The position numbers and the translations under genes were made by a program. Shown piece by piece: positions 35,929 to 40,283 of a stretch of 64,000 nucleotides of DNA; position 1 is the stretch's first letter; every line of letters begins with the position of its first letter. Source of the DNA: Gammaproteobacteria bacterium. GTDB taxonomy: Bacteria > Pseudomonadota > Gammaproteobacteria > DRLM01. The stretch spans positions 1 through 64,000 of the forward strand of contig JAHFRV010000007.1 of NCBI GenBank assembly GCA_023266095.1. The letters run 5' to 3'. The notes beneath the pieces are model-generated. The model saw only the letters and a list, made by a program, of their open reading frames with translations. It did no database searches and was not told the origin of the DNA.

Positions 35929-37272
35929 CTAGCGGGCCAGGACTTCGGGACGGGGCGGCGGCAATGTTTGAAAGCCCGCCGCGTTACTGTCGCCCGCGGC
36001 GATGATCATGGCGAAGATGAATGGCGGAAAGGCGGGGGCCTGCCGGCCGTTGATCACCACTAATGGCGTACCTTCAATGCCGTGTCGGTTGGCGAGTTCG
36101 ATGTCGCGTCGCAAGGTGGCGATGGTTTCCGGTGACGTGACGCATTTTTCCAACGAGGCGCGTTGTGTCTGGTCTTCCGCGGCGATGGTCCAGACCCGCG
36201 CCATGCTGAGTTTGCGCTGTTCGTTGAAGAGCGTGGTGCGCACCAGCTTGCCTTGGGGCGAGCCGGCTAGGCAGATGAGCAGTTTCGCGCTGAGGCAGGC
36301 CACGCCGCTGCCGTCGCTGCGCGAGACGCTGGCGTTGCATTCGCTGTCCAAGGGGAAATGCCGGGATTCCTCGGTCCAGCTGGTGTTGGGGGTGACGCCG
36401 CGGATTTCGTTGAGGGCCTCATCGAGATTGCGGCAATGCGGGCAGCGAATATCCACCCAATCGATGAGGTGCACCGGCGCCTGGGGATTGCCGGAGATGA
36501 CCCGTGCGATGTCCACCGGGGATTCGATGACACGCGCCGTACGATACACGGCGCGCGCGTCGCTGACGATTTGCTGTACTTGCGGTTCCAAATCCCGCAA
36601 GAATTTGGCCAGCGGATCCTGCGACAAGTCCACATCGCCGTGATTGGGGGACGACTCGATGATTTTAGCGAGAGTGGCCGAGGCCAAATCTTGCTTGGGC
36701 GTTTGCAGGCCGGGGTATAACAATACGGCCACAATGATCAGTAATAATCCAAGATCATGCAGCGCGGCGCGCGACCAGGCCGGCTGCTCTGGATGCAGCC
36801 GAGCGAAGGCAAGGTAGACGCTGACGGCGACGAAAACATAGAACAACAGGCAAGTGGGGCAGAATACGCCGAGGGTGATGCTGTAGATCAGCAAGCCGAG
36901 GGAGAGCAGGCCGCCGCCGCCCGTGACCAGCCGCAAGGCGAGCACGATGTCGTCGGCAGGGATTTGCCGGCCTTGCCGCCGCGTCAATTGCAGGGCGAGG
37001 ATAAACACCATGCCGCCCCAGGCCACACCCCAGGCCGCGAACGGCAGGCCGGTATAACGGTGTACGGCGGTGGCCAGCGGCGAGGTCCAGACCGCGGTGC
37101 AATCGAGATTCTCGGACAAGTCGCACAGGGGGCTGGCGCCGCTGGTACGCATTTCATACAACTCGTACCACTGGTAGAGGCCCAGCGATAAGGTAAGCAG
37201 GGCGACGCCGAGCAAAATGATGGCGACGGTGCCTGGCGGTTTTCGGGGAGTCTGGGCGGTTTGAGAGTCCAT
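35929..37272 (-). CDS. VKOR-DsbA fusion (disulfide bond formation)
   Basis: A 447-residue fusion. The N-terminal vitamin K epoxide reductase domain (residues about 15-190) has four to five helices, the active CxxC as C138-P-T-C141 (GVFCPTCLLF), and loop cysteines C50 and C58. The C-terminal thioredoxin-like domain carries C277-P-H-C280 (DIRCPHCRNL) and a cis-Pro loop (EGTPLVVINGRQAP). Such fusions pass electrons from a periplasmic thiol oxidase to quinone, replacing DsbA/DsbB. Additional cysteines occur near DSECNASVS, GVACLSAKLLIC and LEKCVTS. It precedes moeA. Confidence 0.9.
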   Translation of the reverse strand: MDSQTAQTPRKPPGTVAIILLGVALLTLSLGLYQWYELYEMRTSGASPLCDLSENLDCTAVWTSPLATAVHRYTGLPFAAWGVAWGGMVFILALQLTRRQGRQIPADDIVLALRLVTGGGGLLSLGLLIYSITLGVFCPTCLLFYVFVAVSVYLAFARLHPEQPAWSRAALHDLGLLLIIVAVLLYPGLQTPKQDLASATLAKIIESSPNHGDVDLSQDPLAKFLRDLEPQVQQIVSDARAVYRTARVIESPVDIARVISGNPQAPVHLIDWVDIRCPHCRNLDEALNEIRGVTPNTSWTEESRHFPLDSECNASVSRSDGSGVACLSAKLLICLAGSPQGKLVRTTLFNEQRKLSMARVWTIAAEDQTQRASLEKCVTSPETIATLRRDIELANRHGIEGTPLVVINGRQAPAFPPFIFAMIIAAGDSNAAGFQTLPPPRPEVLAR

Positions 37273-37409
37273 GATAATTGGCAGCTTCCGTCGCGATGAG
37301 ATGGATGGAATTTAACAAGTTCGGCCCAGCTTCACAACGGAAGCGGCGAAGCGCGGCGCAATTGGGCAAGTGCGGTCGCTTATGCTATACCGTTAAAGAA
37401 GCTCCGAAT

Positions 37410-37555
37410 AATTCCATCCTGGAATTTTCAGAGCAAGGGAAGCGAAAAATGTGATTTTGGCTTCCCTGCATGTTCAATGGCTGACCGCCATTGAACATGG
37501 CGGCACATTCCTGTGCCGCAGGAACATCTGAATAAATCAGAGGTCCCTGATTTAT
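37410..37555. repeat. Array of five consecutive hairpins upstream of nfeD
   Basis: Five inverted repeats follow one another in 146 bases. 37410-37426: AATTCCA/TGGAATT, 3-base loop. 37436-37467: AGGGAAGC/GCTTCCCT with an inner AAAAT-GTG-ATTTT stem. 37469-37499: CATGTTCAATGGC/GCCATTGAACATG, a perfect 13-bp stem. 37500-37519: GCGGCACA/TGTGCCGC. 37532-37555: ATAAATCAG/CTGATTTAT. Hairpin four can re-pair as TTCCTG/CAGGAA (37508-37524). The last ends four bases before the nfeD ribosome site. It may be a repeat mosaic or a structured mRNA leader. The rest of the gap 37273-37572 holds no gene. Confidence 0.9.
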
Positions 37556-37572: not shown

Positions 37573-38904
37573 GTGCGACGACTCGTGATCTGGATGTCCA
37601 TCTTGGTTTGGTGCTGGCCGCTCAGCTCGCCGGGGCAGGACGCGGGCGGGCGGGCCGTGTTGTTGCAAGTCAACGGTGTGATCGGTCCCGCCAGCCGCGA
37701 TTATATTCAACGCAATCTGCAGCGGGCCGCCGAGCAGGGTGTGGACTTGGTGATTCTACAGCTGGATACGCCCGGCGGTTTGGATGTCTCGATGCGCGCC
37801 ATCATACAAGACATCATCGCCTCGCCGGTTCCCGTGGCGGCTTATCTTGCGCCGTCGGGCGCGCGCGCCGCCAGTGCCGGTACCTATATTCTTTACGCCA
37901 GTCATTACGCGGCCATGGCGCCGGCCACCCATCTCGGCGCCGCGACGCCAGTACAGATGGGCACTCCCATTGCGCCGGCGGGGGGTGAAGCGGAAGGTAA
38001 ACCAGCGCACGGTGACGATGCAATGACCAAGAAAATCGTCAATGACGCGGTGGCCTATATTCAATCACTGGCAAGGTTGCGCGGTCGCAATGTGCAGTGG
38101 GCGGAGCAAGCGGTGCGTGAGGCTGCCAGCCTGGCGGCGGAAGACGCCCTGCGTTTGAACGTCATCGATATGGTCGCCAAGGACTTGGATGATGTATTGA
38201 CGCAGATCGATGACCGGCCGGTGAGCGTGCTGGGCGTAGCGACCCGGGTAGATACCGCCGGTATGGCGGTGGATGAGAGGGAGCCCGATTGGCGTTCGCG
38301 ATTGCTGGCGGTGATCACCGATCCGACTATCGCCTACGTATTGATGCTGCTCGGCATCTATGGCTTGATTTATGAATTCGCGAATCCGGGAATGGTGTTG
38401 CCCGGCGTGGTGGGCGCGATTTCCTTGCTGCTCGCGTTGTTCGCTTTTCAGACCCTGCCGATCAATTACGCCGGTTTGGCGCTGATCGTGCTTGGTATGG
38501 CCTTCATGATCGGTGAAGCCTTGCTGCCGAGTTTTGGCGCGCTGGGAGTCGGCGGCGTGATTGCCTTTGTGTTCGGTTCCATCATTCTGCTGGAGACGGA
38601 TATGCCGGGTTACGGCATATCGTTCGCGGTCATCGCATTATTTTCGATCATCAGTCTTGGTTTTTTGGTATTCGTGGTTGCGCTGGCCTTGCAAGCGCGC
38701 CGCCGTCCAGTGGTGAGCGGCCGCGAGGAAATGATCGGCAGTGTGGGCACGGTGCTGGAGAATTTCGAACGGCAGGGACCCATACATATTCATGGAGAAC
38801 GTTGGACAGCGCATTCAGACCGGCCTTTGCGTGCAGGGCAACGAGCGCGCGTGATAGCCTTGGACGGCTTGATTCTGCGGGTAGAGCCGGTCGAGGAAAC
38901 ATAG
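37573..38904 (+). CDS. nfeD: NfeD-family membrane serine protease
   Basis: A 443-residue NfeD1b protein. A signal peptide leads into a ClpP-like serine protease domain (residues 25-220). The catalytic Ser is in SGARAASAGTYI and the Lys in DAMTKKIVNDAV, as in the archaeal 1510-N protease. About four to five transmembrane helices (residues 240-375) and a C-terminal OB-fold domain (GSVGTVLENFERQGPIHIHGERW) follow. It starts with GTG, eight bases after GGAGG. It is paired with the slipin gene 18 bases downstream; the two act together in membrane quality control. Confidence 0.92.
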   Translation: MRRLVIWMSILVWCWPLSSPGQDAGGRAVLLQVNGVIGPASRDYIQRNLQRAAEQGVDLVILQLDTPGGLDVSMRAIIQDIIASPVPVAAYLAPSGARAASAGTYILYASHYAAMAPATHLGAATPVQMGTPIAPAGGEAEGKPAHGDDAMTKKIVNDAVAYIQSLARLRGRNVQWAEQAVREAASLAAEDALRLNVIDMVAKDLDDVLTQIDDRPVSVLGVATRVDTAGMAVDEREPDWRSRLLAVITDPTIAYVLMLLGIYGLIYEFANPGMVLPGVVGAISLLLALFAFQTLPINYAGLALIVLGMAFMIGEALLPSFGALGVGGVIAFVFGSIILLETDMPGYGISFAVIALFSIISLGFLVFVVALALQARRRPVVSGREEMIGSVGTVLENFERQGPIHIHGERWTAHSDRPLRAGQRARVIALDGLILRVEPVEET

Positions 38905-38922
38905 CGGGTAAAGGAGCGGATC

Positions 38923-39696
38923 ATGACTTCGTACGTGTTTATTTTATTGATCGGTGTAATCGCCGCTTTGTTGGCCACGGCGTTTCGGGTTCTGCGCGAA
39001 TATCAGCGGGGTGTCATCTTCATGCTGGGCCGGTTTTGGAAGGTCAAGGGTCCGGGTTTGATACTGGTGATTCCAGTATTACAGCAAATGGTCAAGGTGG
39101 ATCTGCGCATCATCGTGATGGATGTGCCGAGCCAGGATGTGATATCCCGTGACAATGTCTCGGTCAAAGTCAATGCGGTGATTTATTACCGGGTGGTGGA
39201 TCCGCAACGGGCGATTATTCAAGTGGAAAATTTTGAATCGGCCACCAGCCAACTGGCGCAAACCACCCTGCGTTCGGTATTGGGCCAGCACGAGCTGGAT
39301 GATATGCTGGCCAGCCGTGACAAGCTCAATGCCGATATCCAGACAATTCTCGACGCCCAGACCGATGCCTGGGGGATCAAAGTCACCAATGTCGAGATCA
39401 AACATGTCGATATCGATGAAAGCATGATTCGGGCGATTGCCCGTCAAGCCGAAGCCGAGCGCGAACGCCGCGCCAAGGTGATTCACGCCGAGGGTGAGTT
39501 GCAGGCCTCGGAACATTTGTTGGCGGCGGCGCGGGTGCTGGGGCAGGCGCCGCAAGCCCTGCAACTGCGCTATTTGCAGACCTTGAACGCCATCGCCACC
39601 GAGAATAATTCCACAATCATTTTTCCCGTACCCATGGACTTGATCCAGCCCTTCCTGAAACGGCAGGAAGACCATGCCGGAAATGAGCCTAAATGA
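38923..39696 (+). CDS. Slipin (SPFH/stomatin-like) protein
   Basis: A 257-residue SPFH-domain protein. An N-terminal membrane hairpin ([17 protein letters not shown]) precedes the SPFH/band 7 domain ([72 protein letters not shown]). Slipins form oligomers in lipid domains and partner NfeD proteases, which cleave their C-terminus in archaeal systems. A GGAG site lies before the ATG. Confidence 0.93.
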
Positions 39697-39747
39697 TGAG
39701 CTCGCGAATGTCGATAACAAAAAATGAAGGTATACAAATTTGAGGCG

Positions 39748-39765
39748 CGCTCTTTGAAAAGAGCG
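39748..39765 (+). terminator. Hairpin after the slipin gene
   Basis: CGCTCTT and AAGAGCG form a 7-bp stem around TGAA. There is no long T-run, so termination is uncertain. Confidence 0.4.
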
Positions 39766-39809
39766 TGTTAATATCAGGTGACGGCGCACAACAACAAGGT
39801 TTGCGTGTG

Positions 39810-40283
39810 ATGTATGTAATGCAAAACTCGCTCGGTCTCTACGAGGAAAATTTCTCTAAATTGATGACGCTTCTGCCGGATTTGGCGCGTGCCGACGCCA
39901 GCGCGGTGCTGACCGCCGAAACAATCAGCGGCCTGGAGATAAGAGTGGTGGAACTCAGTCCTTATACCACGACCATTAACCTGGTTCACTCGGTGGAAAC
40001 GGATGAGCGTTTCGTGCCCGCGCTCAATATGAAGATACGCATTTACCAGGATGCGCGAGTAGCCGAAGTGCTGGCGTACCAGCATTCCGGGCGCTTCCGG
40101 CCCCTGTATCCCTACCCGAACCCGAACATGTTTCAGCCCTATGAGAAACGCCGCGTCAATCAGTTTTTAGGAGAATGGTTGGCTTATTGCTTGAAAAAGT
40201 CCTGCCGATTCAAGTTGCACTCCAATAGTGCGGCCCCGTTTGGGTTTATCTCAGGTTATTCGCGTGTTCGGGGTGACGCCTGA
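39810..40283 (+). CDS. DUF1249 (YqiB-like) protein
   Basis: A protein of about 157 residues of the DUF1249 family. Typical segments are LGLYEENFSKLMTLLPDL, TTINLVHSV, LNMKIRIYQDARVAEVLAYQH and FQPYEKRRVNQFLGEWLAYCL. In E. coli the homologue lies between nudF and cpdA; here those neighbours are absent. The function is not known. The start is the first of two in-frame ATGs (39810 and 39819) that fit the family; a longer GTG reading has no ribosome site. Confidence 0.82.
   Translation: MYVMQNSLGLYEENFSKLMTLLPDLARADASAVLTAETISGLEIRVVELSPYTTTINLVHSVETDERFVPALNMKIRIYQDARVAEVLAYQHSGRFRPLYPYPNPNMFQPYEKRRVNQFLGEWLAYCLKKSCRFKLHSNSAAPFGFISGYSRVRGDA

Follow-up and report, generated by a model that had tools for sequence, protein, structure and literature searches.

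Background

MITEs are usually viewed as remnants of insertion sequences in which only the ends matter. Those of bacteria are thought to be insertion sequences that have lost their transposase function (PMC5896051). QMITE2 of Coxiella, as presented in the relevant sections of PMC10969869, makes duplications of 7-9 bp and has ends of 23-29 bp. The element described here resembles QMITE2 and other structured MITEs in being short, intergenic, stem-loop-forming and non-autonomous, but it differs from them by a multi-hairpin architecture that is conserved across genera, a property that these sections of PMC10969869 do not describe for structured MITEs. With REP and BIME sequences it shares intergenic palindromes in many copies. 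However, REPs have a length of 20-40 bp (PMC3733652), whereas the present element has a near-fixed length of 151 bp, terminal repeats and target duplications.

There are also clear likenesses to the IS5 family and the MITEs derived from it, namely ends of the form GGAA-CTCTGA, 4-bp duplications such as TTAA, CTAG and TTAG, and the presence in a congener of an IS5_4 transposase gene with matching ends and target duplication. Unlike in these MITEs, the interior is not a visibly deleted insertion sequence, but consists of five palindromes conserved across genera. A search of a library of open-access papers yielded no paper describing the 151-bp five-hairpin element. We conclude that positions 37397-37547 very probably represent an old copy of an IS5-type MITE of 151 bp, which a transposase would have moved in trans, whose hairpins would act as DNA during its multiplication and which stands beside nfeD as a bystander.

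Extent and structure of the element

The row of hairpins that a preliminary description had placed at 37410-37555 of the window, i.e. of the whole 64-kb stretch of DNA analysed, is real and far beyond chance with regard to stem density and to both RNA and DNA folding. Perfect stems of at least 7 bp cover 92 of the 150 bases from 37410, compared to 44 bases in the runner-up 150-base stretch of the window. The minimum free energy of 37397-37547 is -74.5 kcal/mol when folded as RNA (z -9.2) and -49.8 kcal/mol when folded as DNA (z -10.5), and in both cases none of 200 shuffled sequences folded equally well. The place was correctly recognized, but the bounds were not: the aligned copies share one common unit of 151 bp, whose ends were set by the alignment of copies and by the target duplications, and this unit occupies 37397-37547 (Table 1). 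The outer stem of hairpin 1 (GCTCCGA/TCAGAGC) begins upstream of 37410, while the fifth hairpin proposed at 37532-37555 overruns the element by 8 bases into host sequence. Nor does the element run into the ribosome site, since the GGAGG (from about 37559) lies outside of it. The frame of nfeD opens with GTG at 37573, 26 bases downstream of the end of the element.

The family ends are GGAAGCTCTGA and TCAGAGGTTCC, and the terminal inverted repeats (GGAAGCTCTGA and GGAACCTCTGA, 11 bp) are alike at 10 of 11 positions. Between them the hairpins follow one another in a set order: hairpin 1 with a 7-bp outer and a 7-bp inner stem, hairpin 2 with 12 bp, hairpin 3 with 13 bp, hairpin 4 with 8 bp and hairpin 5 with 11 bp, the last of which is the right end paired with its own inverted copy. 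Folding of the consensus yields the same five hairpins on either strand. In a subfamily of copies (L012, L013, L014, L018, L019, L025, L028, L029), the loop of hairpin 4 is enlarged by about 17 bases (CCCTTCGCTTCGCT-like).

Table 1 Positions of the element, its parts and the adjacent host genes in the window
Feature	Position	Strand	Evidence
VKOR/thioredoxin-like gene, divergent, on the far side of the element and not part of it	35929..37272	-	Pfam VKOR, Thioredoxin_4, DSBA
Left flank TTAA, presumed target-site copy	37393..37396	.	family flanks TTAA/CTAG/TTAG-like
Whole element, most likely a decayed copy of the MITE (151 bp, five hairpins)	37397..37547	+	covariance-model match 1-151, C85:37397-37547, 159.3 bits
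Left terminal inverted repeat AGAAGCTCCGA (family form GGAAGCTCTGA)	37397..37407	+	matches ends of the G001 IS5-family insertion sequence
Hairpin 1, outer stem GCTCCGA/TCAGAGC and inner stem AATTCCA/TGGAATT	37401..37434	+	stem scan, fold, covariation
Hairpin 2, AGGGAAGC.../...GCTTCCCT, family stem 12 bp	37436..37467	+	stem scan, fold
Hairpin 3, CATGTTCAATGGC/GCCATTGAACATG, private compensatory T:A to G:C change	37469..37499	+	stem scan, fold
Hairpin 4, GCGGCACA/TGTGCCGC	37500..37519	+	stem scan, fold
Hairpin 5, family GGAACCTCTGA-loop-TCAGAGGTTCC at the right end, damaged in the nfeD-site copy	37521..37547	+	alignment, fold
Right terminal inverted repeat (family form GGAACCTCTGA, inward reading)	37537..37547	-	alignment, target duplications, G001 IS ends
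Right flank TGAT, presumed target-site copy after decay	37548..37551	.	
nfeD, host gene of the NfeD membrane protease-like kind, adjacent to the insertion and outside the element	37573..38904	+	Pfam NfeD1b_N, NfeD_membrane, NfeD

The nfeD-site copy has some features of its own. Its target duplication is poor, with only 2 of 4 bases alike between TTAA on the left and TGAT on the right, and the double change from T:A to G:C in hairpin 3 is found in this copy alone (1 of 37 rows of the own-genome alignment). The alternative TTCCTG/CAGGAA stem, previously regarded as a second fold of hairpin 4, does exist, but all six of its pairs are present only in the nfeD-site copy (1 of 37 own-genome rows) and in none of 39 cross-genome rows. 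It is therefore private to this copy, and the idea of a switch between two folds in the family was rejected.

Copies in the source genome and the empty site at nfeD

The earlier statement that there is no other copy in the window holds for these 64 kb, but dozens of copies are located elsewhere in the genome. A BLAST search of the stretch against its own genome (3.33 Mb, 110 contigs) resulted in 50 matches, many of them full length, with 75-90% identity. With a covariance model of 27 copies, 104 matches were obtained in the same genome at an E-value of 0.01, and 57 places, as counted by eye down the match list, precede the first reverse-strand shadow. The preliminary description had itself proposed a genome-wide search for copies and had held that a multitude of copies unconnected with nfeD would refute the idea of a regulatory leader; the search revealed dozens of scattered copies without such a link, and by that rule the leader is refuted.

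We checked 40 own-genome loci for target duplications (L041, the same place as L013, was skipped here and in the alignment of copies). Eight of the 40 lack recognisable full ends, and 20 of the other 32 have identical 4-bp flanks, mostly TTAA, CTAG, TTAG, TTTA and TTAT. Duplications of the TTAA/CTAG/TTAG kind fit the type YTAR, the target of IS5. Two short versions of 85 bp (L039, G000:C40:14995-15079) and 98 bp (L040, C73:6101-6198) are devoid of hairpins 2 and 3 and are flanked by perfect 4-bp duplications. Insertion thus does not strictly depend on hairpins 2 and 3, and a requirement for all five hairpins can be claimed only within this limit.

Four relatives (G001-G004) also have nfeD next to the gene of the VKOR type, with no copy of the element between the two genes. 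The empty site was aligned base by base with the congeners G001 and G002. From this comparison of sequences, the element would either have entered the nfeD site in this lineage or have been lost from it in the others.

Distribution in other genomes

The covariance model detected the five-hairpin architecture in 78 of 369 genomes of the class (own genome included) and in 58 of 272 genera at an E-value of 1e-5, and by our own count of the table about 50 of these 78 genomes reach 1e-20 or better, although the E-values of such models are only rough. In a sample of the phylum, 45 of 398 genomes match at 1e-6. Nearly all of these (42 of 45) belong to other classes, mostly to one family (f207). Three copies from outside the class that were examined (L273, L274, L275) possess all five hairpins in order at lengths of 151-153, one of them with TTAG on both sides. 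In these and other copies from outside the class the inner stem of hairpin 1 is longer.

For the exact core pattern, the matches listed include contigs of uncultured Gammaproteobacteria and Proteobacteria, many of them from groundwater, and one Thiotrichales MAG. Plasmids and phages gave no blastn match at an E-value of 1e-5, and viral contigs no exact match to the core pattern. The genome G024 contains head-to-tail arrays with units of approximately 114-136 bp that lack hairpin 5 (L070, 1314-2034 in G024:C1; L071, L072, L073, L075, L078), and single full copies stand beside these arrays.

A candidate mobiliser of the IS5 family

The congener G001 possesses an insertion sequence of 1169 bp (G001:C27) with the target duplication TAAG on both sides. 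Its ends, GGAGCCTCTGAACAATTC and GGAACCTCTGATCAATTT, agree with those of the MITE at 15 of 18 bases each, and its protein of 325 amino acids contains the Pfam domains DUF772 and DDE_Tnp_1 and scores 341.7 bits with the NCBIfam model IS5_4 (cut-off 140). A broken relative with the end GGAACCTCTGAACAATT is located at a contig end in the own genome. In G265, insertion sequence and MITE both end with CGCTGA instead of CTCTGA, and in G095 each of the two has one TCTGAA-AAG end and one TCTGCA-AAG end, while the ends agree in part in G129 and G307. The reading as a mobile repeat is supported by dozens of copies, target duplications, the empty site in congeners and the matching ends of an insertion sequence.

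A protein search with the L099 transposase gave a match at 1e-20 in 6 of 12 element-bearing genomes and none in the other six. The IS5_4 model matched in 4 of 11 element-bearing genomes, among them the own genome, and not in the remaining seven (G216, G072, G020, G233, G249, G024, G117). In genomes without such a match the mobiliser either belongs to another family or is gone. G216 contains many near-identical copies and yet has no IS5_4 match, so that another mobiliser or a recent loss comes into consideration there. Terminal inverted repeats were sought around three IS5_4 loci (L302, L303, L306), but no pair of ends was detected.

Covariation of the stems

In an alignment of 27 hand-chosen copies from nine genomes (A1), 23 of 58 pairs show changes on both sides, and none of 500 shuffles was as high on any measure. 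When the structures were slid along this alignment, pairing dropped from 91% to at most 46%. It had been assumed that a covarying structure would refute the repeat idea. This rule fails, since the present repeat covaries strongly; its covariation is a property of the mobile family rather than of the site at nfeD.

Between genomes, double Watson-Crick changes clearly prevail. The cross-genome alignment (A3) comprises 39 matches from 38 loci, with two near-identical pairs of rows (L111/L142, L120/L208) and two rows from L119, and shows 292 double changes compared to 89 one-sided ones (A.C 42, G.T 21, other 26), with a bias towards paired stems as it mostly includes the best-scoring copy of each genome. 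We therefore added a random draw, repeated 200 times, in which each of 13 genomes was represented by a single copy; hairpins 1-3 then showed on average 81.8 double and 20.9 single changes. This reduces the bias of A3 but does not remove it, because the loci, although chosen by the letters of hairpins 4-5 only, still had to match the model at an E-value of 1e-8. The draw was made from 101 matches, which were kept from 138 after 37 overlapping a better one had been dropped.

The situation is reversed among the resident copies. In the own-genome alignment (A2; 37 matches from 36 of 41 loci), 229 one-sided changes are opposed by only 41 double changes. Sound palindromes thus occur in multiplying lineages, whereas copies that stay put lose them.

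A structure maintained as RNA tolerates G.U. Overall, A3 contains 28 G.T and 45 A.C oppositions and hence no excess of G.T. The same count for the SRP RNA, found in 26 of 30 element-bearing genomes, gives 100 G.T and 5 A.C, a control that leans somewhat to G.U over A.C as its structure was predicted from its own alignment. A control with tRNAs was dropped for A.C in favour of the SRP RNA, since the brackets given by ARAGORN contain allowed pairs only. Taken together, the double changes between genomes, the absence of a G.T excess and the one-sided decay of resident copies favour a role at the DNA level in the spread of the element, and this role is inferred.

Discussion

The order and sizes of the hairpins are constant over many genera and in other classes, while the letters of the stems change in matched pairs without an excess of G.U. 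We suppose that a transposase of the IS5 type would cut and insert the MITE in trans and that the hairpins would act as DNA, be it as cruciforms or as folded single strands. Such a hairpin step, for instance recognition by the transposase or a host factor or survival during replication, would let the copies multiply. New lineages would then be founded mainly by copies with sound palindromes, whereas a copy would decay once inserted. A further-reaching view, which we put forward tentatively and consider somewhat less probable than its opposite, is that of an ancient mobile element of at least two classes, whose folded-DNA architecture of five palindromes is under selection on DNA structure; the hairpins would work in amplification and be recognised via their conserved loops, leaving the arms free to change together.

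The agreement of the arms could also arise without selection, if, at stalled replication, one arm of an imperfect hairpin serves as template for the other. This templated mutation is conceivable but rather improbable. Double changes far exceed single ones between genomes, as it would predict, and the private double change in hairpin 3 of the nfeD-site copy is a hint in the same direction. However, the mostly one-sided damage in resident copies (229 versus 41) indicates that such repair does not predominate once a copy has been inserted, and templated mutation leaves unexplained why hairpin sizes, hairpin order and loop letters are conserved across genera.

It is unlikely, too, that the hairpins serve as RNA in either orientation, for instance as RNase III sites, transcript stabilisers or insulators that ease the harm of an insertion. 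Both strands of the consensus form the same five hairpins, and 30 surveyed copies adjoin genes in all arrangements (10 codirectional in the same and 6 in the opposite orientation, 9 convergent, 5 divergent), as far as the crude ORF calls of this survey permit such a classification. Moreover, G.T would be suppressed along with A.C if both strands were under selection, which weakens the preference for DNA over RNA. On the other hand, a clear preference for one orientation is missing (10 same versus 6 opposite among codirectional neighbours), old copies decay, and G.T is unfavoured on either strand, unlike in the SRP RNA. In addition, an Rfam search of the window returned no match above the gathering threshold, and a known RNA family was rejected on these grounds. 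Over the 30 copies, the element shows no link to one gene arrangement or orientation.

A role of the hairpins as a structured leader RNA that regulates the nfeD operon is highly improbable, despite a strong fold that ends 26 bases short of the nfeD start. The element is absent at nfeD in the four relatives with the same gene pair, dozens of copies exist at other genes, and the alternative stem is private to the nfeD-site copy. A conserved cis-regulatory leader is refuted by copy number and empty site, and there is no preference for G.U (28 versus 45, compared to 100 versus 5 in the SRP RNA).

A repeat of the REP/BIME type moved by a Y1 (RAYT) transposase, or a single-strand recombination site like attC, is barely credible, since its hairpin-rich, intergenic nature, its many copies and the head-to-tail arrays in G024 are opposed by terminal inverted repeats and 4-bp duplications that accord with a DDE transposon but would be unexpected for REP/RAYT repeats or attC sites. 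REP/RAYT repeats are not known to make target duplications and have a single palindrome with a tag tetranucleotide; the present element has duplications and five hairpins and was not assigned to them. From the earlier suggestion of a folded single-strand recombination target, the likeness to attC is not supported in view of ends and duplications of the DDE-transposon type, while the notion of hairpins apparently kept as DNA survives.

Returning to the proposed IS5-type MITE with hairpins acting as DNA, dozens of genera share the structure of its interior, and the paired Watson-Crick changes without an excess of G.U contrast sharply with a real RNA of the same genomes. This makes it directly testable whether DNA hairpins play a part in the life of non-autonomous elements of the DDE type and how the arms of palindromes stay alike. 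It is also a warning that strong covariation, which is often read as proof of a functional RNA, can stem from a mobile DNA element.

At nfeD the element is a bystander. The hairpins may nevertheless be carried in the nfeD transcript, and the element may have an accidental effect on nfeD expression. On the plus strand, nfeD is followed by a SPFH/Band_7 gene and then by a DUF1249 gene (37573-40283), the first two as a NfeD-stomatin pair.
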